A DNA stretch of 51,502 nucleotides from positions 1 to 51,502 of the forward strand of contig QIAU01000162.1 in the NCBI GenBank assembly GCA_003225055.1. Direction: 5' to 3'. Of this stretch, positions 20,514-40,810 are shown piece by piece. Source of the DNA: Acidobacteriota bacterium (GTDB taxonomy: Bacteria; Acidobacteriota; Terriglobia; Terriglobales; Acidobacteriaceae). How positions within the stretch are numbered: the first letter of the stretch is position 1; each line of letters opens with the position of its first letter. A model generated the notes under the pieces. The model saw only the letters and a list, made by a program, of their open reading frames with translations. It ran no database searches and was not told where the DNA came from. The position numbers and the translations under genes are program-made.

Positions 20514-21872
20514 ATGCGCAAATGGCTTAAATCGGTGATCGGCATGGTGGGTATCCTCGCACTCGTCTTCTGCATGCAACCACGATCCACGGCCCAGGCG
20601 GCACATTATGACCTGCTGCTGAAAGGGGGGCACGTCATTGACCCCGCCAATCGGGTCGATGGCGTCATGGATGTTGCAGTGTCGAACGGCAAGATCGCAG
20701 CCATCGAAAAAAATATTCCGGCGGAGCAAGCCGGAAAAGTCATAGATGCGTCTGGGCTGTACGTTACACCTGCTCTGATCGACATCCACTACCACATCGG
20801 TCATGGCGGAGCGCCGTTGAACTGGTTCACGCCCGAGGCGCGAGTACACGAAGCGCCGCTGGGACTTCCCCCAGACTTGGCGTTGCAATCGGGCGTGACG
20901 ACGGTGGTAGACGCAGGCACCGCGGGTGCCGATACATTTCTTCAGGAAAAAGAAGAAGCGATCGACACAGCCAAGGTACGTGTACTGGCATTTCTAAATA
21001 TCGTCGCGAACGGCATGCAAGGTGGCCTGGAGCAAACCGTCGACCAGATGGACCCCAAGCGCTGCGCCGAGACCATTCAGAGGTATAAGGACATCATTGT
21101 CGGGGTGAAGACAGCGCACTACTGGACGGGGGAACCGTGGGATCCGGAACACACGCCGTGGGCTGCGGTCGACCGGGCGGAAGAATGTGGCAAGACGGCG
21201 GGGGTGCCGGTGATGTTCGATTTCTGGCCACGGCCCGACCGCAGCTATGCCGACCTCATCTTAAAGAAGATGCGGCCCGGCGACATTCACACCCATGTTT
21301 TCGCTCAGCAGTTCCCGATCATCCTTCCCGATGGCAAGCTCAACCCGATCCTGATGGAGGCGCGCCAACGCGGAGTCATCTTCGATGTGGGGCATGGTGC
21401 GGGAAGTTTCTGGTTTCGTAACGCTGTGCCGGCGGTCAAGCAGGGATTTATTCCTGATTCGATCTCCACGGACTTGCACACGGGCAACTACCGAGTGCTC
21501 AGCATGGCGGAGGTTATGTCGAAATTCCTGGCGATGGGGGATCCTTTGCAGGATCTTATTCAACGGGCGACTGTAAATCCGGCCCGCGAAATTCGGCACC
21601 CTGAACTGGGTACGCTTTCTGTCGGCAAAGAGGCCGACATTGCGGTTTTTGAACTGCTGCGAGGAAATTTCGGGTACATCGATTGCGGTTACGCGAAGAT
21701 GAACGGGAATGTGAAGCTCGTGGCACGCATGACGGTGCGAGCCGGACGGATCCTTTATGATCCCTCCGGACTCAGCATGATGGAATGGGAGAAGGCAAGG
21801 CCCCAGTACTTCAATACACCTTCATACGGGCACTCAACTCCGGCCAAGGCGGACGATTATCCACGGGAATAG
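20514..21872 (+). CDS. exported amidohydrolase/deacetylase-family metallohydrolase (EF_0837-like)
   Basis: 452 residues from ATG 20514, preceded by AAGGA and opening a Sec signal (MRKWLKSVIGMVGILALVFC, cleavage after AQA). Amidohydrolase-superfamily motifs: DIHYH metal pair (about 93-97), GVKTA with the probable carbamylated Lys, IHTHVF, DVGHG and the active-site Asp in STDLH. The beta-sandwich domain is split (YDLLLKGGHVIDPANR at the front, KEADIAVFEL at the back). EF_0837-type enzymes are usually cytosolic and paired with a SelA-like PLP enzyme, exactly as here (8-base gap). A likely reaction is deacylation of an N-acyl amino acid or amino-sugar acid. Confidence 0.9.
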   Translation: MRKWLKSVIGMVGILALVFCMQPRSTAQAAHYDLLLKGGHVIDPANRVDGVMDVAVSNGKIAAIEKNIPAEQAGKVIDASGLYVTPALIDIHYHIGHGGAPLNWFTPEARVHEAPLGLPPDLALQSGVTTVVDAGTAGADTFLQEKEEAIDTAKVRVLAFLNIVANGMQGGLEQTVDQMDPKRCAETIQRYKDIIVGVKTAHYWTGEPWDPEHTPWAAVDRAEECGKTAGVPVMFDFWPRPDRSYADLILKKMRPGDIHTHVFAQQFPIILPDGKLNPILMEARQRGVIFDVGHGAGSFWFRNAVPAVKQGFIPDSISTDLHTGNYRVLSMAEVMSKFLAMGDPLQDLIQRATVNPAREIRHPELGTLSVGKEADIAVFELLRGNFGYIDCGYAKMNGNVKLVARMTVRAGRILYDPSGLSMMEWEKARPQYFNTPSYGHSTPAKADDYPRE

Positions 21873-21880
21873 GAGAACAC

Positions 21881-23140
21881 ATGCCACGAATCAGCCGTCG
21901 GAAGCTCCTGGGCAGCACGGTCATAACCGGTGCCGCCGCAGTGTTCGGCAGCTCGAGTCTGAACGCGAGTCAATCCCCATCTTCGGCTCCGGCGAATGGA
22001 GTCGACTACTACCAGAAGCTGGGTGTCACGCCGTTTATCAATGCGGCAGGAACTTACACGGTGCTTTCGGCATCGACTATGCCGCCGGAGGTGCAGGCGG
22101 CAGTCGCATTGGCTGCGCAGCATCCCGTTCATCTGAATGAGTTGCTGGTTGCCTCCGGCGAATATCTCGCCAAACGCTTGCGCTCGGAGGCTGCGCTGAT
22201 TACAGCGGGTGCCGCAGCCGCACTTACCCTGGGAACTGCGGCATGCGTCACGCTCGGCAATGCGGGTGCAATCCTCAGCATTCCTACCGACATGAAGGAG
22301 TTGAAGAACGAAGTCATCGTTCAGAAGACGCATCGTTACGACTACGACCATGCCATTCGGAACGCCGGCGTTCGTTTCGTCGAGGTGGCAACCGTGGGTG
22401 AATACGAGCATGCGTTCACTGACCGAACCGTGATGGCGCACTTCTTCAATGCCGGCGAGGGCAAGATTAGCCGCGAAGACTGGGTGCGGATCGCCCACCA
22501 GCATCGGGTTCCGTGCTTCAACGATGCCGCGGCCGACATACCTCCGATCTCGAATTTGTGGAACTACACTCTGATGGGTTTCGATCTGGTCACGTTTTCC
22601 GGGGGCAAAGGGCTACGCGGCCCGCAGTGCACGGGTCTGTTACTTGGGAGAAAAGATCTGATCGAAGCAGCGCGGCAGAACAACTCGCCTAATTCCAATA
22701 CCATCGGTCGTGGCATGAAAGTAGCCAAGGAAGAGATTGTGGGTCTCGTTGCTGCCGTGGACTGGGTGCTGGAACAGGATGAAGGCGCCATGCAAGCCGA
22801 GTTTCAGGGCCGCGCCGAGCGGATCGCCGATCGCCTAAAGAGTCTGCCGACACTCACAACCCGGATATTCGTTCCTGCGGTTGCGAATCGAGTTCCCCAC
22901 CTGCTGATTACTTACGATCCTTCCCGGATCAGAATCACAGGTGCCCAGGTAATCGAGAGAATGCGACAGGGCAATCCGCGCATCGAGCTGAACCCCGGAA
23001 CTGGCGGTGCTCCTGCCAGTGCGGGATTGCCGGGGGGCCCGAACACGATCATTGTGGGTGTTTGGATGATGCAGCCGGGCGAAGACATGATTGTCGCGGG
23101 GCGGCTCCGGGAGGTCCTCGAGGCGGCCGTGAACGCGTAA
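21881..23140 (+). CDS. Tat-exported SelA-like PLP-dependent enzyme
   Basis: 419 residues. AGGAGA lies 4 bases before the ATG. The N-terminus MPRISRRKLLGSTVITGAAA is a textbook Tat signal (S-R-R-K-L-L). The mature part is a fold-type I PLP enzyme of the SelA/L-seryl-tRNA synthase-like family: YYQKLGVTPFINAAGTYT, ITAGAAAALTLGTAACV for phosphate binding, FNDAAADIPP with the PLP-pyridine Asp, and FSGGKGLRGPQCTGLLLG with the Schiff-base Lys. Relatives include D-glucosaminate-6-phosphate ammonia-lyase (DgaE). Tat export fits folding with cofactor in the cytosol. Pairs with the amidohydrolase upstream; a paralogue is at 29479-30738. Confidence 0.93.
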   Translation: MPRISRRKLLGSTVITGAAAVFGSSSLNASQSPSSAPANGVDYYQKLGVTPFINAAGTYTVLSASTMPPEVQAAVALAAQHPVHLNELLVASGEYLAKRLRSEAALITAGAAAALTLGTAACVTLGNAGAILSIPTDMKELKNEVIVQKTHRYDYDHAIRNAGVRFVEVATVGEYEHAFTDRTVMAHFFNAGEGKISREDWVRIAHQHRVPCFNDAAADIPPISNLWNYTLMGFDLVTFSGGKGLRGPQCTGLLLGRKDLIEAARQNNSPNSNTIGRGMKVAKEEIVGLVAAVDWVLEQDEGAMQAEFQGRAERIADRLKSLPTLTTRIFVPAVANRVPHLLITYDPSRIRITGAQVIERMRQGNPRIELNPGTGGAPASAGLPGGPNTIIVGVWMMQPGEDMIVAGRLREVLEAAVNA

Positions 23141-23142
23141 TT

Positions 23143-28108: not shown

Positions 28109-29470
28109 TCACTTCCCGGATCGAACCGCGACCGTGGGTTCTGGCACATCGTATCGGCCCGGTGTGGCCGGTAAGCCCCGCTCCGGATTCACAAATAACC
28201 ATGCCAATGCGCCCACTGCGCACAGAGCTGCCGCGATCAGAAAAGAGGCACCCCACCCGAAGTGCTTGGCGATTACGGGAGTGAGTGATGCGGTAACCGC
28301 ACCGCCAATCTGGTTGCCCATATTCATAAAGCCAGAAACCGAACCGGAGGATTTGCCGGCAATATCAACTGTTACCGACCAGAACGAACTCTGCGATAGA
28401 TAAAGCGCTCCTGCCCCACCGGCCAAAACAATACTAGCAATCCGGGCACTGCTCGCTTCCGCACCGAGTGCGAGAAACGCGCCGGCGACAGCCATGGACA
28501 CACAAGCCAGAATGCAGCGTCCCACGCGCAGTCCGTATCGCCGGCTCAGCCTGTCATTGATGGCACCTCCCGCCAGGCAGCCAGTGGCCATGGCAATAAA
28601 CGGAAGCATCGCGTAGAAGGCGCTGGCCTTCAGATTCAGCTGGCGGGCTTGAGCGAGATAGATATAAAACCAGGAAAAGAAAATCCAGGCCACATAACCA
28701 TAGCAAAAGTAACTCAGCGCCAACCCACGCACTTCTTTGCTGGATACGACTTTAGCCCAATTGAGCGGAGACGCGAGCGCGCCGCTGGTGCCGGAGAAAT
28801 TTAGACCCGCCCGAATCCTGGCAAGTTCAGACGCCGAAACCCGCGGGTGATCCGCCGGCGTGTCCCTTGCCAACAGATACCACACCGCGCCCGCCGCAAA
28901 CCCTATCAACGCGCACACCCAAAACGAGGCACGCCAACCGTGACGAATCATTACGTATGTGATCAACGGAGGAGCGAAACCGGCGCCGACTCCGACACCG
29001 GCGAAAATCCAGCCATTCGCTATGCCACGCTCCTTTTGTGGAATCCACTGTGCCACGAATTGATTGGAAGCGGGATAAACGACGGCTTCTCCGGCCCCAA
29101 GCAAAAAGCGAACCGCGATCAAGATCCAAAGCGCTCCCGTGACCGCAGCAGGGATGGAGGCAGTGACGGCAGTGAATATTCCCCACCAAAGCACACCGGC
29201 CGCAAGCACGCGTCGTGGACCGAAGCGGTCGGCCAAGTATCCGCCGACCGTCTGGAACAAGGCATATCCCACGAGAAAAGCGCTAAACACCCAACCGAGC
29301 TGAATGTTTGAAAACCCGTATGCGTTCGCGATCGAGCCGCCCGCGACCGAGATGTTCACGCGATCCAGGTAAGCGACGGTGCTCAGCACGAAAAGCCAGA
29401 AGACCAGTAGCCAGCGCACCCTACTCCTCTGTGCTGCGTTCATGAGCGTTTCTCGCATGGTCGCAACCAT
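28109..29470 (-). CDS. MFS transporter, anion:cation (sugar-acid) symporter type
   Basis: 453 residues, twelve transmembrane helices. RVRWLLVFWLFVLSTVAYLD and RVNISVAGGSIANAYGFSN near the N-terminus, with the loop 2-3 signature GGYLADRFGPRR, match the ACS branch (ExuT, GudP, DgoT) that imports hexuronates, aldarates and aldonates with protons. It starts 8 bases after the SelA-like PLP gene stop, so it is cotranscribed with it and should import that pathway's product or substrate. A 164-base gap follows before the ASPIC/UnbV gene. The start at 29470 is the first of three close ATGs; none has a strong ribosome site. Confidence 0.9.
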   Translation of the reverse strand: MVATMRETLMNAAQRSRVRWLLVFWLFVLSTVAYLDRVNISVAGGSIANAYGFSNIQLGWVFSAFLVGYALFQTVGGYLADRFGPRRVLAAGVLWWGIFTAVTASIPAAVTGALWILIAVRFLLGAGEAVVYPASNQFVAQWIPQKERGIANGWIFAGVGVGAGFAPPLITYVMIRHGWRASFWVCALIGFAAGAVWYLLARDTPADHPRVSASELARIRAGLNFSGTSGALASPLNWAKVVSSKEVRGLALSYFCYGYVAWIFFSWFYIYLAQARQLNLKASAFYAMLPFIAMATGCLAGGAINDRLSRRYGLRVGRCILACVSMAVAGAFLALGAEASSARIASIVLAGGAGALYLSQSSFWSVTVDIAGKSSGSVSGFMNMGNQIGGAVTASLTPVIAKHFGWGASFLIAAALCAVGALAWLFVNPERGLPATPGRYDVPEPTVAVRSGK

Positions 29471-29478: not shown

Positions 29479-30738
29479 CTACACCGAGTGCGTAAGGAAC
29501 AGCTGGGCCATCTGCTGGGCTACGATATTTTCTTCCCCGGGCTGTAACTGGAACGAGTTCATCACCAGTCCGGGCCGGCCTTCACTGCCTTCCTTGCCGT
29601 GTCCGATAACGATGGATGGCTTGCCTTCGCGCAATAGCCGAGACATTTCTGGAGGCGTGAGGCGAATGCGATTCTCCTCCCAGGTAATGTTCATGTGGGG
29701 CACGTGGTTCGCAACCGGTGGCATGAAAAATGACGCGCTCACGCCGGGAATCTTGGTGACCTGGCTGGCGATGGTCTTGAGGCGCTGCTGCCATTCTCTT
29801 GCCAAGGCATCCTGATCCTCGGCCAGATGAATTTCGAGCGCCTTAATCATGGCCACAATTTCTTCTTTGCCGACTTTCTGACTGCGCCCGATCGTGTCTT
29901 CGTACGGACTATTGTTGAAGAGCGCATAGCGAACCAGGTCTTCGCGGCCGAGGAGCAAACCCGCGCACTGAGGACCACGAATGGCTTTTCCTCCGCTGAA
30001 GGTAACCAGGTCGTAGCCCATGTTGACGTAGTCCCACAAATGAGAGACGGGAGGAGTATCGGCTGCCGCATCATTCATGCAAGGTAGGTTGTATTGTTTC
30101 GCGAGCTTCACCCATTCGTCGACCTTGATCTGACCGTCCGGATTCGCGAAGTTTGAGAAGTGCATCATGGCAGTTCGATCGTTAACCGCCCGGCGTAGTT
30201 GTTCCCGTGTCTCAATCTCCACCAGTTTCACCCCCGTCGTTCGCAGCTGGTGATCGAATGGGTTGCGGTGTGACTTCTGAATGATCACTTCCGACTTCAT
30301 GCCGCTCAAATCCGGCAGTTGTCGGATGAAGGTCTCATTATCGCCTGTAAGGATCCCGGCAAGTCCGGATTGAATGGCTGCTGCCGCTCCCGACGTGACT
30401 ATGGCGCTGTACCCTTGTGGGAGCTTGAGCATCTGCGCAATCCGCTTTCCGGCGGCCATTTCAAGTTCGGGGATGCTAACGTAATGTCGCGCGGCCTGCT
30501 CAACCACCGCCTGAATCTCGGGATGCGGAAGAGAACCACCGAGCACCGTCATGGTCCCTTCGCAGTTGATGACAGAGGTCACGCCAAGTTCTTCGTACAC
30601 ATTGCCGCTCGCCCCAAACCCGGTCAGCTTAGGTGGCGGACTCCAGCCGAAGGATCTGCATGCTGCGACCACCGCGGCAGCAACTGTTCCCAGGCCCCCG
30701 AGAAAGCTGCGACGGTTCCACCGTCCATTGATTCCCAT
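29479..30738 (-). CDS. Tat-exported SelA-like PLP-dependent enzyme, second copy
   Basis: 419 residues, the same length as the copy at 21.9 kb. N-terminus WNRRSFLGGLGTVAAAVVAA is a Tat signal with a possible lipobox at VVAAC. Mature motifs: VYEELGVTSVINCEGTMTVL, TSGAAAAIQSGLAG, IIQKSHRNPFDHQLR, CMNDAAADTPPVSHLWDYV and the Schiff-base Lys in FSGGKAIRGPQCAGLLLG. Its neighbours are a RidA protein (16-base gap upstream), a quinoprotein dehydrogenase and an ACS-type MFS transporter (8-base gap downstream). It probably performs alpha,beta-elimination or deamination of a sugar-acid substrate. The two copies differ clearly in sequence, so they may use different epimers. Confidence 0.93.
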   Translation of the reverse strand: MGINGRWNRRSFLGGLGTVAAAVVAACRSFGWSPPPKLTGFGASGNVYEELGVTSVINCEGTMTVLGGSLPHPEIQAVVEQAARHYVSIPELEMAAGKRIAQMLKLPQGYSAIVTSGAAAAIQSGLAGILTGDNETFIRQLPDLSGMKSEVIIQKSHRNPFDHQLRTTGVKLVEIETREQLRRAVNDRTAMMHFSNFANPDGQIKVDEWVKLAKQYNLPCMNDAAADTPPVSHLWDYVNMGYDLVTFSGGKAIRGPQCAGLLLGREDLVRYALFNNSPYEDTIGRSQKVGKEEIVAMIKALEIHLAEDQDALAREWQQRLKTIASQVTKIPGVSASFFMPPVANHVPHMNITWEENRIRLTPPEMSRLLREGKPSIVIGHGKEGSEGRPGLVMNSFQLQPGEENIVAQQMAQLFLTHSV

Positions 30739-30754: not shown

Positions 30755-31258
30755 CTAGTTGCGGGTTATCGCCGCGATATACAGTTGATTCCGAGCAGCG
30801 AGCGTCCGGGAACGCCGGCAACGGAAACGGTTGTACGCGCGCGGGCCACCATGAGGGAAGTGGGTCCTGAAGACTCTGTTCCGCCCATCGTAGTAATCCA
30901 AGTTGGCGAGATGCCCAGTTAGCTGAGGGATACTGTCCATGCTGCCGCCGCCTTCGACCAGCTTCTTGACATTATTCATGACTTTCGTCGTATGCGACTC
31001 GATATCACCCCGCTGGGCGGAGCCAGCATCGTTTGCGCCCTGGCCCGAGATGTAGTTCAGGCCTTTATGGACAATCAGGGGCGTGATCATCTGCGTGCCA
31101 TCCGCTGGCTTGCCATCATAATCGAGTTTCCGCACGCCTGACTTGTTCTCGCTGGTCGAGCCGTCGGCGTGCAGCAGCGTGGAAGTAAGCCCCCGTCCCG
31201 GCAGAAGTGAGGCCAAGCGGAGGGCAAACTTGCTGCGATGAAAGAGGCTGGTCATCAT
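30755..31258 (-). CDS. RidA-family protein with an internal compensated frameshift
   Basis: 167 residues. The centre is RidA/YjgF-like: LIVHKGLNYISGQG (about 60-73), TTKVMNNVKKLVEGGGSMDS and LTGHLANLDYYDG. After HFPHGG the displayed frame becomes nonsense for about 20 codons, while the adjacent frame reads PARTTVSVAGVPGRSLL-INC, the conserved RidA C-terminus with the substrate-binding Arg. The frame returns for the final IAAITRN. So two indels (about 30833 and 30785) destroy the active-site Arg segment unless they are sequence errors. The N-terminal 35 residues are extra and may be a weak export signal. The start overlaps the dehydrogenase stop by 4 bases. RidA hydrolyses enamine/imine products of PLP lyases, matching the gene next door. 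Confidence 0.75.
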   Translation of the reverse strand: MMTSLFHRSKFALRLASLLPGRGLTSTLLHADGSTSENKSGVRKLDYDGKPADGTQMITPLIVHKGLNYISGQGANDAGSAQRGDIESHTTKVMNNVKKLVEGGGSMDSIPQLTGHLANLDYYDGRNRVFRTHFPHGGPRAYNRFRCRRSRTLAARNQLYIAAITRN

Positions 31259-32931
31259 CTTTTATCGCCTGCGGATACCTGCCTTGAATCGAGCGAACCG
31301 GGCAAGGCAAAGCTGAAAATATCGCTGCCGGCGGCAATGGCCACATACTGGGTGTCTCCAATCGCGTAGCTCATAGGGGACGCATAAATACTTTGTCCGG
31401 TATTGAAGTGCCAAAGCGGTTCGCCACTGTGCGCATCGACCGCTTCAAAGGAATGAGAGTCGTCGCCGAAAAATACCAGTCCACCAGCCGTAGTCATGGT
31501 CCCTGCAGCGGACCAGTCATGGCTCACCTGTGGGTACCTCCAAGCGAATTTCTCCGTGCTCAAATCGAAGGCCAATAAGAAGCTTTGCCGCTCCTCGCCG
31601 GCAATGTGCTTAACCCCGGTCGCGTAATAGGTTTGTCCTTCGGCGAATTTCTGCGGCTTGCGAAAATATGTTTGGCACTCTTCCAGTGACTTGAAATAGA
31701 ACAGGTGCGTGCCTTCATTGTAGGAAGGAGCATACCAATTGGTGGCCCCCGCGTAACCTGGACACACCCGGGTGCCGGCGGCGGTAGGTTCGACATGGCT
31801 CGGAATCGGACGGCCCCGCTCGTCAATACCGCTGGCCCAGTTCAACTTCTCCACGAAGCGAACCGCTGACAGGAATTTGCCATTCTCCCGCTCGAGAATG
31901 TAGAGGAAACCGTTGCGGTTGGCCTCGACCACAAGCTTTCGCGGCTGTCCCTTGTAGACGGTGTCAATCAATACCGGGGTTTCGCTGGCGTCGTAATCGA
32001 ACAAGTCGTGAGGAGTAAACTGGAAATGCCACTTGAGCCTACCGGTATCCGGATCCAGCGCGAGAAGGCAATCGGTGTACAAGTCATCGCCGGGACGAAC
32101 CCTCCCGTCAAAATCGGGTGCGGGATTGCTGGTCCCCCAGTAAATGGTGTTCAGCTCAGGATCGTATGTTCCCGGCATCCAGGTCGTGCCACCGCCTCGG
32201 AGGTAGAGCTGCCCCGGCCAGCTGGAGGAACCAAATTCACCGGGAGCCGGAATGGTCCAGAAACGCCAAACCTCTTTGCCGCTTTCTGCATCAATAGCGG
32301 CCACAAATCCGCGCACACCATCGTCCCCACCGGATGTGCCAACCAGAACTGTGTTCTTTACCACCAGCGGAGCGCTGGTCGCGCCGTAATTCTTGTTTCC
32401 CGTGGCGTAGGCAACATCCCACAGTAAATGGCCGGAGCGAGCGTCAAGGCATAGCAAGTGAGCGTTGTCGGTTTCCATGTAGATCCGGTTGTGCCACACG
32501 CCGACTCCGCGATTGAGGTGCCCAGATGCGTCGTCGACCAGTCCTTCTGTCACCGGGCGCGAATAATGCCAGACCTGCCGTCCTGTGCGCGCGTCCAGCG
32601 CGAAGGCATGGTTAGCGGCGGTTACGAACATTAATCCGTTGATGACCACCGGCGTAACCTCAAGATGGCTTGTGTTGCCAGCATGGAAAACCCATTCCGC
32701 ACGTAGCTGGCTGACGTTGTGGGCATTGATTTGTGACAGCGTGCTGAAACGGCGTCCCGTGTAGTCGCCATTGTAGGAAACCCAATTTCTGCCAATGGGC
32801 CGGGCCGCGAGCTCAGAGGGGCCTACATTGACGGTCGTCGAGGTGCTGGACGACGTGGTCTCGGAAATGGCCAACATCAGCAGGCAGGTGCAAAATAAGA
32901 ACAAACACGCAGGTTGGCATGCGCGCTCCAT
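31255..32931 (-). CDS. PQQ-dependent (quinoprotein) alcohol/sugar dehydrogenase
   Basis: 558 residues from ATG 32931 (hydrophobic leader ACQPACLFLFCTCLLMLAIS). Eight-bladed propeller: IGRNWVSYNGDYTGRRFSTL at the start, then NRGVGVWHNRIYMETDNAHL, KEVWRFWTIPAPGEFGSSSW, PELNTIYWGTSNPAPDFDG and PHDLFDYDASETPVLID, where the catalytic Asp lies. The adjacent-cysteine pair seen in methanol and ethanol dehydrogenases is absent at the expected place before NRG, so electron flow may differ. No fused haem domain; a separate cytochrome c is at 37.2 kb. It oxidises alcohols or aldoses in the periplasm. Its stop overlaps the RidA start (ATGA), linking it to PLP chemistry. Confidence 0.9.
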   Translation of the reverse strand: MERACQPACLFLFCTCLLMLAISETTSSSTSTTVNVGPSELAARPIGRNWVSYNGDYTGRRFSTLSQINAHNVSQLRAEWVFHAGNTSHLEVTPVVINGLMFVTAANHAFALDARTGRQVWHYSRPVTEGLVDDASGHLNRGVGVWHNRIYMETDNAHLLCLDARSGHLLWDVAYATGNKNYGATSAPLVVKNTVLVGTSGGDDGVRGFVAAIDAESGKEVWRFWTIPAPGEFGSSSWPGQLYLRGGGTTWMPGTYDPELNTIYWGTSNPAPDFDGRVRPGDDLYTDCLLALDPDTGRLKWHFQFTPHDLFDYDASETPVLIDTVYKGQPRKLVVEANRNGFLYILERENGKFLSAVRFVEKLNWASGIDERGRPIPSHVEPTAAGTRVCPGYAGATNWYAPSYNEGTHLFYFKSLEECQTYFRKPQKFAEGQTYYATGVKHIAGEERQSFLLAFDLSTEKFAWRYPQVSHDWSAAGTMTTAGGLVFFGDDSHSFEAVDAHSGEPLWHFNTGQSIYASPMSYAIGDTQYVAIAAGSDIFSFALPGSLDSRQVSAGDKR

Positions 32932-33655
32932 ATGTTCAAATGAGTTGCTCACAATTTTCAAGTTGCCAGTCCGCCCGATAACAAGGGAGCGTTTCCGCTC
33001 TGAAAGCAGCCGATCGCGGATCGTTTTAAATGCTTTTACGCAAAAATGAAAGTGAAAATTAACAGGGAGGTCCACCCTCGACTCTTTTTCCGCGGAACAT
33101 AATTGCAAAGTTTGGGGATGGATTTGCACTTATTCAATGCATAGATCAATTGATCCTTCTTTGAAATCGGCGCGCTCAGGCAGGGTCGGAATTCTCAGCT
33201 CACGCGCCTTCCCGAGGACGACAAGCTGCGGCCTCATGGAAGGCCTCAGACGGCGTGCTGGTCACGCACACAACACACCAGCTTCACCGATATACCGAGG
33301 TCCGATCTGCGCACTTGGACACGAGCCGGGGACCGAGACAATGCTCATCAGTCAAGTGAAAATAGTCGGTTGCAAGGTAAACGCGTGACGAAGGCCGCGG
33401 GCTCATTCACCGGCGGAGATTGTTTCCCAACCTCAGCCGCGGGTGAAGGGCTATTTGTAGGATGCGGAACCAGCAACTACCTGGCGCTTTCTGCGGCCGC
33501 GTCCTGGATCGCGACCACCGGACGGCGTGCACGCGCGGCTCCACCTTCTGAGCTATCATTCTTCCCCGATTCGGTGCGGAAGGGTTGGCAAACCCTCGCC
33601 GCGGTCGCGCGTGAGCGGCTGGTTAATCCGCCTAGCCGCCTGGTCCATGGATGGT
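32932..33655. other. intergenic region upstream of the dehydrogenase operon
   Basis: About 720 bases between the GH36-like gene's stop and the dehydrogenase start, both on the minus strand. The dehydrogenase frame stays open to 33129 but that extension has no signal-peptide character and was left out. A half-operator-like GTAAACG at 33377 lacks a matching second half. No gene, repeat or convincing promoter was identified. Confidence 0.5.
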
Positions 33656-35893
33656 TTACTTCATCACTTCTAACAACAGATGTTCTTGAAACGTGGTTTT
33701 TAGGTGCGGGGCCTTGTCAGCCGTCGCTTCTACGGTACCGAGATCTTGGTTTTCGTCGTAGTTTACGATGTGATAGGTCCCCGGTTTCAAGCCGCGCAAC
33801 TCGACTTCGCCGCTCCAGGGTCCTGCGGCCGGTGGGAAGAAGGCGTAAAACATTTTGCCGTCCTTCTCGATCGCGTATCCTTCAGGTACGTCGTAGCCGT
33901 AGACGTAGAGGTTGCGAAAAGTCCCCCGGGAAAGCATTTTGTTGTTATAGATGCCGATCCATTTCTTCCAGTGTGCTTCCTTCTCAGACGTTAGCAGCAC
34001 CGGTTTAAACTTGGGCCCGGGATCCGGCCACACGAACTTGGTTCCCACCACACCGCCAGTGCCGATGGTGGAGGCGAAATCGGAGCCGTGCTCGCTCCAC
34101 CCTTTGCTGACGCGAGTCATTGCAGAGAGTTCGACATGATCCCCATAGACGGCGGCTTCGGGGCCGAGTAACGCTTTGTACATCTTGATTCGGCGGCGGA
34201 CCTGCACAGCTCCGATCGGATCAGCCGTCACCGCCTGATCCATGTACGGTAACCAGGCCAGTGACGGCGGTGTCCCGCAGGGACAGCTCTGGGTCACGCT
34301 TTCCGGTTTGATGGCGCGGGTGGTTTGGAAGATCGTCTTGTAGACTTCGCCCATCGCGTTCACCGCATCCTGCGGTGACCGGTGGTGGTGACGAGGGTTG
34401 TAGCACATGGGCACGGTGTAGATATTGTCAAGTTTGGAGCCGTCGAATCCCCAGTCCCGGATGAACTTCTCGGTGAGCCGCTTATAGTAGGCCTGCACTT
34501 CGGGAAGGGCAGGACAGAGCGCGGCCAGGCCTCGCGTCATGCGCGCGTGAGTGCCATTTTTGTTGAGAATAAGCCAGTCGGGATGCTCCTGGGCGACCTT
34601 GGAAACAACGTATCTGTGCGAACTGTATGTCCCCTGTCCATCTTCCACGCCCAAAGGAAGCCACCAGAGCTGTACCAGCTCGCCTTGCTTGTGGAATTCG
34701 TCGACCATCTTCTTAATGGAATTGCCGGGGAAAGTATCCGAGCGCGGATTCCAGTCGCCATAGGTATCAAACCAGCGGTCATCCAGCGTGGCCCACTTAA
34801 TGCCCAACTCTTTCAGCTTCGGAATCGTGTCCACCATCTGCGCGGGCGTGACGTTGAATTCATAACCCCATCCGCACCAGCTCACGTTGTAGGCTTCGCC
34901 GGAAGGCTTAGGAAGGTTCCATCCTTCCTTGGCGAGGACACTCGACCAGAGTCGCAAGGGCTCGTAATAGTCACCGGCGAATACCGAGATGAAGCTGCGG
35001 GGCGTGGAGAAGCTTTCCCCGGGTTTGAGGGTGACATTGGCGGGCATGACCATCGAGGCGCTGACTCGCGAATCGGAGGTCACTTTTACCGGGAGAGAAA
35101 GCGTCAACGGCAAAGTCTCAATGTGTCCGATAGCTTCGCCAACAGAACCCGTCCAGAAAGCTATTAGCGGAATCCCGCCGCCGAAGCCGCCTTTGCCGAT
35201 GGCCCCCATTTCATTCGGCTGGAAAAAGGGGGCACGTAGTTTAAGGACGTCGTCTTTTCCCCATTCATAACTGGATCCCTGGAAGGACCACATGTCATAG
35301 GGGGCTGAGTTGGCCAGGTGAGAATTGAAACGATGTCGTTGCGCTACCACCTGATCGAGGGTGATCAATCCGATGCCGCCGTTCTTGTATTCCACGGAGG
35401 TTAGGGCAACATTGGGAAAATCGTCATAGGCCTCGAGGACCAGTGTGGCCTGCAGGTTGGCGTCGGATGGCCCGAGTGGACGGGCAGGGATTTCGACACG
35501 CTTTCCCCGTCCCAACTTGCCGATCGCCTCCAGGTTTTTGGCCGCGCCGAAATCAAGCAAAAAATGAACTTCTTTGCCGGAGATCAGGAGATAGTTGCTG
35601 TCCATCGGCTTACCTTGTTCGGGCTCATCAAGCGTGGCGTGTTCGCCGTTCTTGATCAGCCAAGCCTGAATATAGCCAGAGGGCTGCACCTGGAATTCTG
35701 CCGCGCTGGTCTGGAGGATGATCGGGCCGCCGCTATTGAACAAGACTCTGACGGCGGAGGGTAGAGAAGCCGGCTGAGTGGGCTTTTTCACACCGGACTG
35801 GCAGCTTGTGTTCAGCGTGAGTCCAACCGTGAGCAGAACGAGAAGAGAGATTGCGATCGCGGAAGAAGGATGATTGCGCAGTTCGCGTTTCAT
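33656..35893 (-). CDS. GH36-like alpha-galactosidase family lipoprotein
   Basis: 745 residues. The N-terminus ISLLVLLTVGLTLNTSC is a lipoprotein-like signal (Cys about 31). An N-terminal beta-sandwich (about 50-320) precedes a TIM barrel of the GH36/melibiase group: VSWCGWGYEFNVTPAQM, ELGIKWATLDDRWFDTYGDW, LVQLWWLPLGV, then WGFDGSKLDNIY, where the Asp in KLD fits the catalytic nucleophile, and DQAVTADPIGA further on. A C-terminal sandwich closes it. It likely cleaves alpha-linked galactose or related glycans outside the cytoplasm. It starts 8 bases after the stop of a deleted amidohydrolase, so the two formed an operon. The exact linkage is not predictable. Confidence 0.85.
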   Translation of the reverse strand: MKRELRNHPSSAIAISLLVLLTVGLTLNTSCQSGVKKPTQPASLPSAVRVLFNSGGPIILQTSAAEFQVQPSGYIQAWLIKNGEHATLDEPEQGKPMDSNYLLISGKEVHFLLDFGAAKNLEAIGKLGRGKRVEIPARPLGPSDANLQATLVLEAYDDFPNVALTSVEYKNGGIGLITLDQVVAQRHRFNSHLANSAPYDMWSFQGSSYEWGKDDVLKLRAPFFQPNEMGAIGKGGFGGGIPLIAFWTGSVGEAIGHIETLPLTLSLPVKVTSDSRVSASMVMPANVTLKPGESFSTPRSFISVFAGDYYEPLRLWSSVLAKEGWNLPKPSGEAYNVSWCGWGYEFNVTPAQMVDTIPKLKELGIKWATLDDRWFDTYGDWNPRSDTFPGNSIKKMVDEFHKQGELVQLWWLPLGVEDGQGTYSSHRYVVSKVAQEHPDWLILNKNGTHARMTRGLAALCPALPEVQAYYKRLTEKFIRDWGFDGSKLDNIYTVPMCYNPRHHHRSPQDAVNAMGEVYKTIFQTTRAIKPESVTQSCPCGTPPSLAWLPYMDQAVTADPIGAVQVRRRIKMYKALLGPEAAVYGDHVELSAMTRVSKGWSEHGSDFASTIGTGGVVGTKFVWPDPGPKFKPVLLTSEKEAHWKKWIGIYNNKMLSRGTFRNLYVYGYDVPEGYAIEKDGKMFYAFFPPAAGPWSGEVELRGLKPGTYHIVNYDENQDLGTVEATADKAPHLKTTFQEHLLLEVMK

Positions 35894-35901
35894 TTTGCCC
35901 C

Positions 35902-36363: not shown

Positions 36364-36683
36364 GATGACCTCCCTTGATGGAGACCAGGCCGGTTAGCGT
36401 TTGACAGCGGATCGGAATGAAGTAGAAGAACTGCTCGTAAGTATACAGTCGAAAGGCAAGGGAACGATCGTGCAAGCGATGCTGTTCGTACCATGAATTC
36501 ACAGTTGTGGTTGCTTGGGTGTCGGCAGAGGCGACTATTTGTAGATACCTCGCTCCTGGTTGTATAAATGTGCGCGCAAGCACCGTGAACGTGTCCTAAA
36601 ACGCTTATCTTTTATGCGCCGTGCCGAATTTGTCGCTTTCGGCGAGTGATCTTCCCAAATATCCGAAAGGAGAAAGAGCACAC
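36364..36683. other. divergent intergenic region between amidohydrolase relic and RidA
   Basis: 320 bases that should hold divergent promoters for the minus-strand amidohydrolase/GH36 pair and the plus-strand RidA/cytochrome/CBM9 genes. No consensus promoter or palindrome was convincing by eye. Confidence 0.4.
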
Positions 36684-37136
36684 ATGCACCGCAAACAGGC
36701 AATTATGGCGTCAGGTATTCTGCTGGCGCTATTGGCGGCTGTTCCGTCATTTGCGCAGCAGAAACGCGCTATCGTAGTCGGAGAGGCCAAAGGGCTGCCC
36801 TTCAGCGACGGAATTGTGGCCGGAAACACGCTGTATATCGCCGGCACCGAAGGCACCGATGAGAACAACAAACTAAGACCCGGTGGAATCGGGCCGGAGA
36901 CGCAGGCGGCATTGGACAATATTCAGAAGGTTCTGAAAAAAGCCGCCTTCGAATTGCAAGATATTGTCTCAGTAACCGTATACCTCGCTGACATCAAAGA
37001 TTTTCCCGAGATGAACAAGGTTTACAAAACCGTCATCCCTGATCCCAAACCTGCGCGTGCAACCATACAAGCCGCGGGCTTGGTCAACGATGCACGTATT
37101 GAGATCTCAGCTATTGCCGTGAAACAGAAGAAATAG
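36684..37136 (+). CDS. exported RidA-family (YjgF/YER057c/UK114) protein
   Basis: 150 residues from ATG 36684 with AAAGGAGAAAG just upstream. It has a clear Sec signal (MHRKQAIMASGILLALLAAV, cleavage after SFAQ). The mature domain is complete: FSDGIVAGNTLYIAGTEGTD, ETQAALDNIQKVLKKAAFEL, IVSVTVYLADIKDFPEMNKV, then PARATIQAAGLVNDARIEIS with the conserved Arg of the active site and the E-I-x-A-I-A end. RidA normally hydrolyses 2-aminoacrylate-type imines in the cytosol; an exported form implies imine or enamine intermediates outside the inner membrane. It is followed 34 bases later by cytochrome c and then a CBM9-like gene. Confidence 0.92.
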   Translation: MHRKQAIMASGILLALLAAVPSFAQQKRAIVVGEAKGLPFSDGIVAGNTLYIAGTEGTDENNKLRPGGIGPETQAALDNIQKVLKKAAFELQDIVSVTVYLADIKDFPEMNKVYKTVIPDPKPARATIQAAGLVNDARIEISAIAVKQKK

Positions 37137-37170
37137 GAGTTCTGCCATCATCGAGAACTCGCGAGTACGG

Positions 37171-37968
37171 TTGTGGATGGTCATTGCGGTTGGGTGTGCC
37201 GGCAGCCTGGTCGCGGCCACAGGATCGATGGCCAACAACCCGGGGTCGGAATCCGAACCAATCGCTTCCGGGCACAAAATCTTCGCTTCCATGTGCGCCA
37301 GCTGTCATGGGCTAGACGGCAAGGGAGGCGAACGCGCTCCCGATATCGCTCGAGCCCCTGCCATACAGCGGCTCTCGGACGAGAGGTTGAAGCGTGTCGT
37401 CGAAGAAGGTGTACCGGGGACAGGCATGCCGGCATTTCATGTGCTGGGCAGCTCAGGCGCTAAGGCCGTGGTTAGATACTTGCGTGTCTTGCAAGGTCGG
37501 GGAAGACTTTCTGCATTACCCGGTGATGCGGCACGCGGCAGGGCGCTATTTTTCGGAAGCGCAGGATGTTCTGGTTGCCACATGGTCGCCGGCGCGGGTG
37601 GGTTCATTGCAAGTGACCTATCTGCCTACGCCAGCGGGCATACGGTTCGGGAAATCAGGGAAGCCATGACCCACGCGGGCATCTATTCCGAGACCGCGAC
37701 CCGGCACGTTGTCGTAACAACCCGGGACGGCGAGCGATACGATGGGATCATTCGCAACGAGGACAATTTCTCGATTCAATTCCAGATGCTGGATGGCACA
37801 TTCCAATTCTTCACGAAGAGGGATGTAAGCCAGGTGCAGCGCCGGCCACCTGTGATGCCGATTGGCACCACGATTGCCATGACGGAGGCGGGGTTGAATG
37901 ATGTAACCAAGTTCCTCATTTCTGCTGCCAAGACCAGCGACGATGAGACCGCTTCGGACGCCCAGTGA
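37171..37968 (+). CDS. dihaem cytochrome c
   Basis: 265 residues. N-terminal signal (VIAVGCAGSLVAATGSMA). Two haem-c sites: CASCH (about 42-46) with a following GTGMPAF Met ligand, and CSGCH (133-137). The C-terminal 100 residues (VVVTTRDGERYDGIIRNEDN, FSIQFQMLDGTFQFFTKRDV) form a beta-rich domain found in some acidobacterial cytochromes and PQQ-linked proteins. It should take electrons from a periplasmic dehydrogenase such as the one at 31.3 kb. The start is odd: TTG 37171 or ATG 37177 lack a ribosome site, whereas GGAG at 37137 is well placed for an in-frame ATC at 37147, giving a better basic n-region (IENSRVRLW). Confidence 0.9.
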   Translation: MWMVIAVGCAGSLVAATGSMANNPGSESEPIASGHKIFASMCASCHGLDGKGGERAPDIARAPAIQRLSDERLKRVVEEGVPGTGMPAFHVLGSSGAKAVVRYLRVLQGRGRLSALPGDAARGRALFFGSAGCSGCHMVAGAGGFIASDLSAYASGHTVREIREAMTHAGIYSETATRHVVVTTRDGERYDGIIRNEDNFSIQFQMLDGTFQFFTKRDVSQVQRRPPVMPIGTTIAMTEAGLNDVTKFLISAAKTSDDETASDAQ

Positions 37969-37994
37969 TCACGCCTCCCATGGAGGATCGTGCT

Positions 37995-38762
37995 ATGCCG
38001 CGACTGCCGGGCAGCGATACAGTCCAGCACTCCAAGTTAGGCGCCCGATTCGGAATCTATGTCTTGTCCACCTCTCTCTTGTGCATACCTGTTGCAGGGC
38101 GGACTGCGACTTCCCGATGTCGGAACCGAGCGGGCGTGATCGTGGCTGGTCATTTAAGTCATGAAATCCAGTTGGACGCGGTTCATCCCGCGAAGGAATG
38201 GGCGAAGGCGACACCTATGACATTTTGCTCGGACTGGCAGGGTAGGAATGCCGATCCGCAGCGACAGACAACGGTACGCGTCCTTTGGTCCGCGCAGAAT
38301 CTCTATTTGCGGTTCGAATGCCGGTATCGGGAGCTCTACGTGTTCGACGATGGCGATCCAAACGGTCGACGGGATCACTTGTGGGAGCGCGATGTCGCCG
38401 AGGCATTCGTTCAGTCCGACCCACTGCAGCCTCATTATTACAAAGAGTTCGAAGTCGCTCCGAATGGGTTTTGGATCGACCTGGACATTTCTCCAGCTCC
38501 GTCGCGCGACCTCAAGAGCGGACTCGAGCACTCGACATTTCTCGATAAGCGGCAGAACAGATGGTTTGCCGAACTGGCCATTCCGCTCAAGTCTTTGACT
38601 TCTGACTTCAACCCAGGCGCCGTTTGGCGCGCCAATTTCTATCGTGTGGAAGGCCGAGCGGAGCCGCGTTTTTACTCTGCGTGGCGACCTACCCACACGC
38701 CCCAGCCCAATTTTCATGTTCCCCGCGCATTTGGCGAACTTCGTTTCGCTCCAGCACGATAG
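37995..38762 (+). CDS. exported CBM9-like carbohydrate-binding protein
   Basis: 255 residues from ATG 37995 with GGAGG 9 bases upstream. A hydrophobic signal-like stretch (FGIYVLSTSLLCIPVAG) precedes a single family 9-like beta-sandwich: VHPAKEWAKATPMTFCSDWQ, VRVLWSAQNLYLRFECRYRE, LWERDVAEAFVQSDPLQP, YKEFEVAPNGFWIDLDI, RWFAELAIPLKSL and VWRANFYRVEG. CBM9 domains bind reducing ends of xylan and cellulose; stand-alone copies are common in acidobacterial and Bacteroidetes carbohydrate loci. It starts 26 bases after the cytochrome stop, so it is likely cotranscribed with RidA and the cytochrome. Confidence 0.85.
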   Translation: MPRLPGSDTVQHSKLGARFGIYVLSTSLLCIPVAGRTATSRCRNRAGVIVAGHLSHEIQLDAVHPAKEWAKATPMTFCSDWQGRNADPQRQTTVRVLWSAQNLYLRFECRYRELYVFDDGDPNGRRDHLWERDVAEAFVQSDPLQPHYYKEFEVAPNGFWIDLDISPAPSRDLKSGLEHSTFLDKRQNRWFAELAIPLKSLTSDFNPGAVWRANFYRVEGRAEPRFYSAWRPTHTPQPNFHVPRAFGELRFAPAR

Positions 38763-38885: not shown

Positions 38886-39668
38886 TCAGAGGCGGCCGAA
38901 CTTCTTTACCGCTTCCTCAATCGACCTGAGCTTTTCGATGTACGCGTACATGGAATGCTCTTTGAAATCCATTTCCTGTGCGGTCGCAAGGACCTCTGCC
39001 GCTCTGGCGCGCGGAACCACAATCACGCCATCTGCATCTGCGACCACAAGGTCATCGGGCGCAACCGTGACCCCGTCGCACACCACAGGAACGTTGGCAG
39101 AGGCAAAGCGATAGTGACCTACCGAGGTGGAGGGCACAATCCCGACCGCAAAGACGGGGAAGCCAATTTTTGTTAGATAACCGACATCGCGAACTCCGCC
39201 ATCAATCACCGCACCAGCAAAATCCCGCGCCTGCATGGCAGTTCCCATCAATCCCCCCATGCCGGCGATGTCGGCTCCGTCTTCAACGAACATTACGTAA
39301 ACTGAATTCGGGGCTCCCTGATCGATCGCGGTCAACATCCCTTGCAGGGCGTCGGGATCGTGGTTTTCTTCTTTCTTCAGTTTCACGGTAACTGCAAATC
39401 CGGCGAACTTTGCGGGGAAGATCGGGCGCATGCGATGCGACAAATAGGTGCGCTGACCTGTAACTTTCTCCATGGCGTCGGACACGGATGCAACTTCGAC
39501 GTGACGGTATCCATCTAGAAGTGCGGAATCGGATTTCAGGTCAGGGGGATAGGAAGACGCGCGCGGAATCGCAATAAAGGCGATAACCAGAAAACTCGCG
39601 GCAAGAAAAAGGAATGCAGTAGCGAAGATACTCGTAACTGGCCTGTTTCCGAACAGTCTCTTTACCAT
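38886..39668 (-). CDS. membrane-anchored RraA-family aldolase-like protein
   Basis: 260 residues from ATG 39668 with GAGGAG 7 bases upstream. Residues about 10-34 (VTSIFATAFLFLAASFLVIA) form a signal anchor or signal peptide. The RraA/HMG-aldolase fold follows: HVEVASVSDAMEKVTGQ, GLMGTAMQARDFAGAVIDGG, VRDVGYLTKIGFPVFAVG with the metal/substrate R-D pair, and VTVAPDDLVVADADGVIVVP. Relatives are cytosolic 4-hydroxy-4-methyl-2-oxoglutarate/4-carboxy-4-hydroxy-2-oxoadipate aldolases and oxaloacetate decarboxylases. Export suggests cleavage of 2-oxo-4-hydroxy acids outside the inner membrane. Divergently transcribed from a second RraA gene (209-base gap). Confidence 0.88.
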   Translation of the reverse strand: MVKRLFGNRPVTSIFATAFLFLAASFLVIAFIAIPRASSYPPDLKSDSALLDGYRHVEVASVSDAMEKVTGQRTYLSHRMRPIFPAKFAGFAVTVKLKKEENHDPDALQGMLTAIDQGAPNSVYVMFVEDGADIAGMGGLMGTAMQARDFAGAVIDGGVRDVGYLTKIGFPVFAVGIVPSTSVGHYRFASANVPVVCDGVTVAPDDLVVADADGVIVVPRARAAEVLATAQEMDFKEHSMYAYIEKLRSIEEAVKKFGRL

Positions 39669-39877
39669 TCTGTGCTCCTCAAGTTCGCAGGGATGTTGCA
39701 TCTCGTGCTGCCAGACTGGCCCCACTTGAAAGTTGTAACAATCGAGAGCAGCGCGCCGATACTACACAATCCTGCTGCCACAAAGAAGGAAATTTCCCAG
39801 CCTCCCCGGCCCTTGCGATTGACAAATCATAATCAATTTGAGAGGTTCGGAAGCCGATTCCCCGTGGAGGTAAACAC

Positions 39878-40810
39878 TTGAAGATGAATCGCGACTTGGT
39901 CCGATTGTGTGTTGCCGCAATCCTTTATGGATGTGCTTGGTTCGTGTTCATGCCTGCATCTGTCGCCCAATTGCTCAGCTTTCCCCCCCAGGAACTGGTG
40001 GACTACTCGCCGCAGAATCCTTTTGATCGCCTGGCCGATGGCAGACCAAAGGTCCCTGATGATCTGATCGAGCAGGCACGCGGGTTGTCTTCGGAGGAAG
40101 TGTGGGCAGTTCTCGAAGGGAAGGGGCTTCATAATCAATACGCGGATGGATTTCAAGTCCTGCATCCGGGAAAGACCATGGTTGGACGCGCGTTTACCGT
40201 CCAGTTCATGCCCATGCGCTCGGATGTGGACGATGTCGCTAAGGCAAAGGCGAGAGCACGCGGTATCAGGCGGCTTACCAACCAGACAGCGATTGACATG
40301 CTGCAGCCCGGCGACGTGCTGGTAGTTGATTTGTTCGGCAAAAAAGTGAATGGAACGATTGTCGGCGACAACCTCTTTTATTACGTCATGCAGGCCACGC
40401 ACGGGGCCGGATTAGTTGTGGACGGCAGCGTACGCGACCTGGATGGAATTTCAGAAATCGATATGCCTGCTTACTTCCGATCCGTCGATCCCACGCCGAT
40501 CGGAGACGTCATGCTGACCGGAATCAATCTTCCGATTCGTATGGGTGGAGTGACCGTAATGCCAGGCGATCTTGTAGTCGGCGATCGCGAAGGCGTGTAT
40601 TTCATTCCTCCCCAGTTCGTGCGTGAAATCCTCGACACGGCTGATGAAACCCACATTCACGACGAGTGGACGAAAAAGAAGTTCGCGGAAGGGAAATATA
40701 GATCCAGTGAGATTTACAGTTCGCCGACTGATCCTAAACTGCAGCAGGAATACCGAGAGTACCTAAAAAAGCGGCTGGAAGAAATTCGCAAGCAGCGGAG
40801 TTCCAAGTAA
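39878..40810 (+). CDS. exported RraA-family aldolase-like protein, second copy
   Basis: 310 residues. GGAGG at 39866 is 7 bases before TTG 39878 and 13 before ATG 39884, so TTG is the better-spaced start. The signal peptide is LCVAAILYGCAWFVFMPASV. The mature protein has an N-terminal helical extension, then the RraA fold: MVGRAFTVQFMPMRSDVDDV, LQPGDVLVVDLFGKKVNGTI, HGAGLVVDGSVRDLDGISEI with the R-D pair, and VTVMPGDLVVGDREGVYFIP. A charged C-terminal helix ends it. It differs strongly from the divergent copy, so it probably has a different substrate. Both face the RidA/cytochrome/CBM9 genes. Confidence 0.9.
   Translation: MKMNRDLVRLCVAAILYGCAWFVFMPASVAQLLSFPPQELVDYSPQNPFDRLADGRPKVPDDLIEQARGLSSEEVWAVLEGKGLHNQYADGFQVLHPGKTMVGRAFTVQFMPMRSDVDDVAKAKARARGIRRLTNQTAIDMLQPGDVLVVDLFGKKVNGTIVGDNLFYYVMQATHGAGLVVDGSVRDLDGISEIDMPAYFRSVDPTPIGDVMLTGINLPIRMGGVTVMPGDLVVGDREGVYFIPPQFVREILDTADETHIHDEWTKKKFAEGKYRSSEIYSSPTDPKLQQEYREYLKKRLEEIRKQRSSK

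Follow-up and report, generated by a model that had tools for sequence, protein, structure and literature searches.

A gene cluster of acidobacteria with predicted exported DgaE-like, RidA and RraA proteins: a candidate periplasmic route from amino sugars to 2-keto-3-deoxygluconate

The stretch of DNA analysed here, referred to as the window, is an entire contig (QIAU01000162.1, our C104; 51,502 bases) of an Acidobacteriota genome of 7.4 Mb with a stated completeness of 98.73%. It carries a gene cluster centred on two pyridoxal phosphate (PLP) enzymes related to DgaE, SelA1 and SelA2, together with two RidA and two RraA-family proteins, an amidohydrolase, a quinoprotein, a dihaem cytochrome c and a carrier of the major facilitator superfamily (MFS). 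Family calls on window proteins come from Pfam and NCBIfam profile scans (scores in bits throughout), which bear out the gene families that a first-pass annotation had named from the letters alone. Statements on cited papers refer to the part of each text available to us.

As judged from intergenic spacing, most of these genes fall into three putative operons. The first (plus strand, 20514–23140, 8-nt spacer) consists of an EF_0837-like amidohydrolase/deacetylase predicted to be exported (20514–21872, in a frame open from 20400) and SelA1 (21881–23140, start SRRKLLG). The second occupies 33129 to 28109 of the minus strand (spacers of -4, 16 and 8 nt) and comprises a quinoprotein dehydrogenase-like propeller with a D-Y-D motif and predicted export (31255–33129), RidA2 (30755–31258, a copy whose two frames were recovered by tblastn), SelA2 (29479–30738) and the MFS importer (28109–29470), which we take to be of the type named ACS. 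The third (plus strand, 36621–38762, gaps of 34 and -4 nt) contains RidA1, intact and predicted to be exported by the Sec pathway (36621–37136), the dihaem cytochrome c (37171–37968; PF13442, TIGR02603; CxxCH at residues 42 and 133) and a CBM9-like protein, also predicted to be exported (37965–38762; PF06452/PF16011). Beyond it lie, as a divergently oriented pair, RraA1 (38886–39725, minus; PF03737, 127 bits), predicted to be membrane-anchored or exported, and RraA2 (39878–40810, plus; PF03737, 98 bits), predicted to be exported. A 7-bladed lactonase with an N-terminal signal (predicted export) is encoded at some distance, at 14385–15554 on the minus strand (PF10282, 417 bits).

Genome contigs were scanned for relatives of the SelA pair; of the 416 found, the best 80, in 79 loci, were retained. 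Record titles name acidobacteria for 77 of the 79 loci; L079 and L114 are contigs of metagenome-assembled genomes labelled Betaproteobacteria and Arcobacter, their SelA genes nest in acidobacterial clades, and they are probably mislabelled or misbinned. Distribution over the phylum is patchy, a SelA2 match at E < 1e-20 being present in 15 of 149 genomes, the source genome included. Linkage was counted in the 44 loci with at least 6 kb of sequence upstream and 4 kb downstream, for genes within 8.5 kb of SelA2 that were assigned by best BLAST hit above 70 bits; the other 35 loci lack the flank required. Near SelA2 we found the quinoprotein gene in 32 of the 44, RidA2 and RraA1 in 30 each, and cytochrome c and MFS in 29 each, with RidA1 (11), RraA2 (7) and the amidohydrolase (1) being rarer. 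Some RidA is present in 33 loci, and in 30 of the 32 that bear the quinoprotein. Clustering of all open reading frames (ORFs) revealed, in addition, genes that are missing from the window: an SMP-30 gluconolactonase with predicted export (22/44), an IclR regulator (14), a PfkB kinase of the 2-keto-3-deoxygluconate kinase (KdgK) type (9), a NagB-like protein (8) and the 2-keto-3-deoxy-6-phosphogluconate aldolase Eda (7). The sister of the window SelA2 (L036; SH-aLRT support of 100 in a quick tree, 80% identity) stands in a row with RraA2 (opposite strand), MFS, KdgK, Eda, NagA (321 bits, cut-off 225.65) and a GlmS-type SIS protein.

It could be argued that there is no single pathway behind these genes and that a carbohydrate region merely groups unrelated exported enzymes. 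A deoxy-sugar operon and a melibiase-like gene do flank the window cluster, 35 of the 79 loci have no flank for counting, and 11 of the 44 are without any RidA. Against this, dozens of loci share these genes, frequently with their order kept; quinoprotein, a RidA, an RraA and MFS occur all together in 25 of the 44, and a second arrangement is found in the genomes G061, G036 and G125 (see below). We consider such an explanation highly improbable, and chance grouping was rejected on the same locus maps. The co-occurrence in other acidobacteria on which the first-pass annotation had staked its proposal is evident in many loci.

Export was judged by reading N-termini and by their conservation, the KdgK, Eda, IclR and NagB ORFs of the same loci serving as internal controls. 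A twin-arginine (RR) pattern, as in signals for twin-arginine translocation (Tat), is present in 94 of 97 SelA2-class ORFs (window copies included; two of 99, truncated at contig ends, were dropped) and in all six of the SelA1 class, against none of 59 controls; RraA1 displays it in 6 of 47. In an alignment of 50 rows (48 of the 80 listed relatives and both copies from the window) R9, R10 and K251, the lysine for PLP, do not vary (50/50), and RRx[FL] occurs close to the N-terminus in 46 of 48 relatives of RidA2. A hydrophobic N-terminus, defined as an 11-residue mean of at least 2.0, was found in 46 of 47 RraA1, 16 of 17 RraA2, 21 of 23 RidA1 and 33 of 35 gluconolactonase sequences (together 116/122), in 41 of 50 quinoproteins and in 2 of the 59 controls. 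At this threshold it was detected in just 18 of 97 SelA2 and 15 of 48 RidA2 sequences; since these proteins lie mostly below it, the argument for their export is based on the RR motif. Signals for Tat have a lower hydrophobicity than those for Sec. The genome encodes TatC (242.7 bits). Conserved N-terminal signals on enzyme types that are normally cytosolic support the export predicted here, and the signals proposed for the window proteins are shared by their relatives. PLP enzymes that are exported by Tat and function in the periplasm have been described, namely PvdN and PtaA (PMC6206403).

Both SelA-like proteins stay below the cut-offs of TIGR01437 (SelA2 178, SelA1 169.7; cut-off 385.3) and of a second NCBIfam model (140.2 and 135.5; cut-off 600 for SelA2). 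A true SelA function was rejected, since their scores with TIGR00474, the model of L-seryl-tRNA selenium transferase, are 49.4 and 36.8, far below its cut-off of 267.9, and a separate full SelA, whose start has no RR, is encoded elsewhere in the genome (contig C23; PF03841, 363.9 bits). SelA1 shares a tree clade with the SelA proteins of G061 and G036. By profile as well as by fold, the closest solved relatives of SelA2 are DgaE (7lc0) and Cap15 (8t7j). For an AlphaFold2 model with a mean predicted local distance difference test (pLDDT) of 89.4, Foldseek ranked DgaE first, with template modelling (TM) scores of 0.75/0.85 at 25% identity.

In DgaE, the substrate phosphate lies near Arg-301, Arg-332 and Arg-346 and the carboxylate near Arg-226; the H163A variant is still active and releases free enamine, RidA being the kind of enzyme that clears enamines (PMC9529869). 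We transferred these positions by hand to a profile alignment of SelA2 with DgaE and Cap15 and counted over the 50 rows. None of the 50 has Arg at the positions aligned with Arg-301, 332 and 346, 49 have Arg or Lys at that of Arg-226, and the loop aligned with His-162/163 contains His in a single row. Absence of the phosphate arginines is expected for an unphosphorylated substrate, which lends support to the same suggestion in the first-pass annotation; a phosphorylated substrate, as for DgaE, was judged unlikely from these positions. Absence of the His-163 donor in the alignment, taken together with enamine release by DgaE H163A, would explain why a RidA is co-exported. On this basis SelA2 appears to be related to DgaE, to take an amino-sugar acid that is not phosphorylated and to depend on an external enamine hydrolase.

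The proximity to Cap15 raises another possibility, that SelA2 is an O2-dependent PLP decarboxylase of this kind (or a PvdN-like enzyme) tailoring a secreted metabolite. Among solved structures, Cap15 and DgaE have the closest folds, and PvdN and PtaA are precedents for periplasmic activity of PLP enzymes exported by Tat (PMC6206403). However, as read from the alignment, Cap15 has an Arg at each of the three phosphate positions, where SelA2 has none, and its activity is phosphate-dependent (PMC6384614). The recurrent neighbours are, moreover, catabolic, and a RidA is better matched to an enamine-releasing lyase, so that we regard a tailoring role as quite improbable.

RidA1 belongs clearly to PF01042 (108, cut-off 27.3), retains the catalytic Arg in 23 of 23 sequences and does not reach the cut-off of TIGR00004 (91.8, cut-off 106.25). 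Two RidA proteins had been named in the window, and both genes are indeed there, though one is broken: RidA2 has a frameshift ahead of the ARTT motif and its RR is altered to HRSK. This copy is a decaying gene or an assembly error. Another, intact Tat-type RidA2 (63%) is encoded in the source genome at position 56427 of contig C55. In relatives, a 416-residue protein with a signal-like start and, by eye, about three RidA-like units is encoded in L073 (3542–4792) and nine other loci, and a RidA-like stretch follows another SelA-like gene in L072, L073, L083 and L088.

The quinoprotein passes TIGR03075, the model of PQQ (pyrroloquinoline quinone) alcohol dehydrogenases (487, cut-off 480.05); its top NCBIfam model, TIGR04528, named 'acido-empty-quinoprotein' group A, scores 532.6, below the cut-off of 650. 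Over 46 homologues a Trp, an Asn, the catalytic Asp, a second Asp two residues on and an Arg are each invariant (46/46); their roles are presumably those of the corresponding residues in methanol dehydrogenase. A D-x-D motif is a lanthanide sign in quinoproteins. The name 'empty' could denote an inactive quinoprotein, a reading that we did not adopt: five of the seven site features checked are invariant in the 46 homologues, and PQQ genes are present, the source genome containing PqqE above cut-off with PqqB-like and PqqC-type genes adjoining. The dihaem cytochrome c is proposed as the electron acceptor. The exported gluconolactonase of relatives, found near SelA2 in 22 of the 44 wide-flank loci, lies near the quinoprotein and cytochrome genes; this fits aldose oxidation and favours the delactonisation step supposed earlier. 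The PF10282 lactonase of the window is possibly its counterpart, and in G061 and G036 the cluster has lactonase-like genes at its flanks.

The amidohydrolase passes NF006689 (373.7, cut-off 371) and stays below TIGR03583 (206.2, cut-off 432.15); its PDB matches are 2ogj and 8je0, with the D-aminoacylases 1m7j and 3gip as distant ones. Its N-terminal start and motifs were read from the sequence, with residue roles that we assume. We propose that it may deacetylate an N-acetyl amino-sugar acid. In the second arrangement, that of G061, G036 and G125, amidohydrolase is joined to SelA, RidA and RraA. In G061, which belongs to the same family, 19 kb hold an RraA, three SelA-like, two RidA, two MFS, an amidohydrolase and two lactonase genes, in the order lactonase, MFS, histidine kinase, regulator, RraA, SelA1, RidA, third SelA-like gene, MFS, RidA, SelA2, amidohydrolase, lactonase (response-regulator names, like that of KduD, were assigned by eye). 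In G036 one contig carries SelA1, RidA, a SelA-like gene, amidohydrolase and lactonases, and a second contig carries RidA2-SelA2; the more distant G125 has RraA, amidohydrolase, RidA, SelA1, RidA and a further SelA-like gene.

The distant D-aminoacylase matches also bear on a different idea, in which the exported PLP enzymes serve as deaminases for beta-hydroxy amino acids of the D-serine or D-threonine type, RidA clears 2-aminoacrylate-type enamines and the sugar genes are mere neighbours. OngC, a functional analogue, takes D-serine and D-threonine besides glucosaminate (PMC9537276). Such a scheme leaves no role for the gluconolactonase, KdgK, Eda, NagB-like and NagA neighbours, nor for quinoprotein and cytochrome, and appears to us unlikely.

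In RraA1 the Arg-Asp pair is conserved in 45 of 45 sequences, and at the position of the first acidic residue of the aldolase 3noj all 45 have Gly (we presume the spacing of this residue in the RraA motif, that of HMG/CHA aldolase). RraA2 has Arg-Asp in 17 of 17 and the Asp of its GDN in 15 of 17. Arg-123 and Asp-124 of HMG/CHA aldolase are catalytic and metal-binding (PMC5065237), and FlDet is an RraA-like dehydratase/decarboxylase of a 2-keto-3-deoxy hexarate (PMC8563752). RraA1 and RraA2 would act on a 2-keto-3-deoxy acid, as aldolase or dehydratase, in a side or salvage branch.

The fate of the product is best traced from genes around the carrier. Of sugar-acid type, the MFS protein stays below every NCBIfam cut-off shown (best score 224 with TIGR00893, cut-off 395), and it is proposed as a putative carrier of 2-keto-3-deoxygluconate (KDG) or another sugar acid. 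Among 33 loci with both SelA2 and MFS, KdgK follows MFS within 1.5 kb in 11, and Eda is present in nine of these. KdgK occurs in 14 loci and NagB-like genes in 10, with an overlap of one locus. Eda of relatives passes its cut-off (197, cut-off 156), the best NCBIfam match of the IclR protein is KdgR (183.7, cut-off 275), and the NagB-like genes are below the NagB cut-off, as is the best NagB match in the source genome. The latter encodes KdgK (72%) and Eda (51%) about 3 kb apart on contig C276, in a KduI locus. Because KdgK follows MFS in 11 of 33 loci and Eda accompanies it in nine, import and phosphorylation are a more likely fate of the product than a phosphorylation-free route. The first-pass annotation had placed the whole pathway outside the inner membrane and free of phosphorylation: an extracytoplasmic route for amino-sugar acids is partly supported by the signals, the clustering and the lost arginines, and its end point is better seen in KDG import, KdgK and Eda.

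Should RraA be the main enzyme instead, which corresponds to the phosphorylation-free version of the first-pass annotation, the same exported lyase would operate, RraA would split or change the keto acid in the periplasm (to pyruvate and glyceraldehyde), and MFS would import the fragments. RraA1 is linked in 30 of 44 loci, KdgK in 9, and the Arg-Asp pair is complete in all 45 RraA1 sequences; FlDet provides a precedent for an RraA-like enzyme on a 2-keto-3-deoxy sugar acid (PMC8563752). The Gly that RraA1 has in all 45 sequences at the aligned acidic residue of 3noj speaks against this version, and KdgK right after MFS in 11 of 33 loci suggests import of KDG itself. Taken together, we hold cleavage in the periplasm to be rather unlikely.

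We therefore return to the reading that we prefer, a periplasmic oxidative amino-sugar route delivering KDG (or its galacto-epimer) to the cytoplasm, to which we give a probability of roughly 0.48. Families, conserved signals, linkage and active-site changes were computed, and from these we infer every reaction, the sugar and the order of steps. An exported PQQ-type dehydrogenase would oxidise C1 of a free amino sugar and pass electrons to the dihaem cytochrome c. An exported lactonase would then open the lactone to a 2-amino-2-deoxy-aldonate of glucosaminate type, and where an exported amidohydrolase is present it would strip the N-acetyl group. SelA2 (and SelA1), which Tat would export in folded form with its PLP, would eliminate water across C2–C3; without the proton donor of DgaE, SelA2 would set the enamine free. 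An exported RidA would hydrolyse the enamine or imine to KDG and ammonia, the ACS-type MFS would take KDG into the cytoplasm, and KdgK with Eda (adjoining MFS in some relatives, on C276 in the source genome) would convert it to pyruvate and glyceraldehyde 3-phosphate. RraA1 and RraA2 may form the side or salvage branch on the 2-keto-3-deoxy acid. In its full form, with D-x-D quinoprotein, lactone opening, optional deacetylation and a Tat-exported PLP lyase whose own proton donor has given way to a co-exported RidA, all in the periplasm, only KDG crossing the inner membrane and nitrogen freed outside the cytoplasm, the scheme is conceivable and somewhat doubtful.

Several observations weigh against this route. 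RidA2 is broken in the window and absent from the sister locus L036 (which has RidA1). No RidA was found in 11 of the 44 wide-flank loci, two of them with the quinoprotein (L076, strain KBS 96, and L082); these 11 have mostly more distant SelA proteins (44–52% identity), and in L067, L076, L081 and L082 SelA2 is at 63–66%. The quinoprotein has Asp in place of the Glu metal ligand and no vicinal Cys pair in 46 of 46 homologues, and its top family bears the name 'empty'. No orthologue of the SMP-30 gluconolactonase was found in the window, the best match in the source genome being at 38%. The fold of SelA2 is as close to chain B of the O2-dependent decarboxylase Cap15 (TM 0.78/0.89) as to DgaE. 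The loop of His-163 aligns through an ambiguous gap, His-193 (33/50 rows), directly preceding this loop, could act as proton donor, and 16 of 50 rows have an Arg two residues past the position of Arg-301. The amidohydrolase is near SelA2 in just three of the 79 loci (L040, L087, L090; adjacent or one gene away), to which paralogues in G061 and G036 are to be added, and is thus an optional module. KdgK is not directly after MFS in 22 of the 33 loci and not within 9 kb in 21, and neither KdgK nor Eda was found in the window itself. Lying in a KduI locus, KdgK of the source genome serves other KDG sources and is not devoted to the cluster.

The proposed chemistry has several known counterparts. 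In the DgaE system a DgaE-type PLP enzyme also removes ammonia from a glucosaminate to give a 2-keto-3-deoxy acid, on which an aldolase then acts, as proposed here (PMC9529869). SelA2 differs by its Tat signal and, in the alignment, by the absence of the phosphate-cluster arginines and of His-163; the DgaE system has a phosphotransferase system, whereas the acidobacterial cluster is linked to RidA, quinoprotein, lactonase and MFS. Nearest in logic is the ong pathway of Pseudoalteromonas for oxidised chitin sugars, with the deacetylase OngB, the deaminase OngC, the RidA OngD (essential, its role given as unknown in the available text) and KdgK: aldonate, deacetylation and PLP deamination to KDG with a RidA (PMC9537276). 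OngB and OngC are predicted to be cytoplasmic and to act after import by an SSS carrier; in the acidobacterial cluster there are export signals, and import is proposed after deamination. OngC is of fold-type III and OngB is nearest to D-aminoacylases, in contrast to the SelA/DgaE fold with RR motif found here. PvdN and PtaA of pyoverdine maturation bind PLP in the cytoplasm, are exported folded by Tat and work in the periplasm, as proposed for SelA2; they differ in being tailoring enzymes of a biosynthesis with other reactions, and the available part of PMC6206403 mentions no RidA partner. FlDet resembles RraA1 and RraA2 as an RraA-family enzyme on a 2-keto-3-deoxy sugar acid; it belongs to an alginate pathway, with no export mentioned in the available part of PMC8563752. 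Among the matches listed for open-access literature (titles and abstract starts), we found neither exported SelA, RidA or RraA nor a periplasmic glucosaminate or deamination route.

Oxidation of hexosamines by acetic acid bacteria takes place in the periplasm. By incomplete oxidation these bacteria turn hexosamines into hexosaminates, glucosamine into glucosaminate, which is like the first steps proposed here; a deaminase step is not mentioned in the available part of PMC9171043.

Some further observations concern related loci. In L076 (5173–11993) a shortened set of SelA1, SMP-30, CytC, quinoprotein, SelA2 and a CBM9-like gene was seen; its 21 kb contain neither RidA nor RraA nor MFS. The source genome has a third Tat-type SelA-like gene (L129, contig C270; 8934–14385), which lies in a sister system beside cupin-like (named by eye) and DUF4380-like genes and another quinoprotein (64%). 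It also has a remnant of a second cluster on C55 (L144, contig positions 46001–65000; 10026–16270 of this stretch), in which a 132-residue ORF with a quinoprotein fragment precedes the Tat-type RidA2; downstream of the latter, two F5/8C glycoside hydrolases flank a polysaccharide deacetylase. In 11 loci (e.g. L054 11289–13523 and L048 11263–13422) the cluster is linked to genes of a secreted protein family that is glycoside-hydrolase-like and has an F5/8C domain; a Pfam scan of this family gave no match to a catalytic domain. A chitosan link through it was considered and found weak, the F5/8C domain matching a chitosanase domain at just E 0.0025. Its model, of low confidence (pLDDT 62.4), is nearest to an Acidobacterium beta-glucuronidase at a TM of about 0.35, a match so weak that it names no substrate.

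Other genes of the window adjoin the cluster. On the minus strand at 15569–20270 there are an unnamed protein, an ApbE-type flavin transferase (17013–18071; PF02424, 222 bits), a PQQ-like beta-propeller (18058–19101; PF13360/PF13570) and a DUF362 protein with an RR motif in its MDRRAFVK start (19110–20270; PF04015, 66 bits), a set that follows the amidohydrolase in the same order in L090. The melibiase-like glycosidase, predicted to be exported (33656–35893, minus) and presumably of family GH36, fits about equally an alpha-galactosidase (PDB 8x1b, 3.4e-68) and an alpha-galactosaminidase (9awt, 2e-66). The deoxy-sugar operon beside the cluster (43017–49901, plus) encodes a class II aldolase, an SSS carrier, a fucose-isomerase-like protein, an FGGY kinase and an aldose epimerase. 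Of a GH43-like protein (41980–42402, plus) the start alone is open (140 residues), possibly a second frameshift or a gene remnant, and an ORF at 8144–9190 (minus) was named by eye as an IS630-like transposase.

If the preferred reading is true, PLP-dependent elimination of ammonia and its repair by RidA, known from the cytoplasm, would take place in the periplasm of bacteria that are common in soil. Amino sugars of chitin or chitosan type would be usable without phosphorylation at uptake, and ammonium would be released outside the inner membrane. Were the whole route periplasmic, this compartment would house a RidA dedicated to catabolism. The cluster may, furthermore, provide a test case from nature for the question why RidA is required by some lyases, as it contains an exported DgaE relative apparently without the histidine whose loss frees the enamine (PMC9529869).

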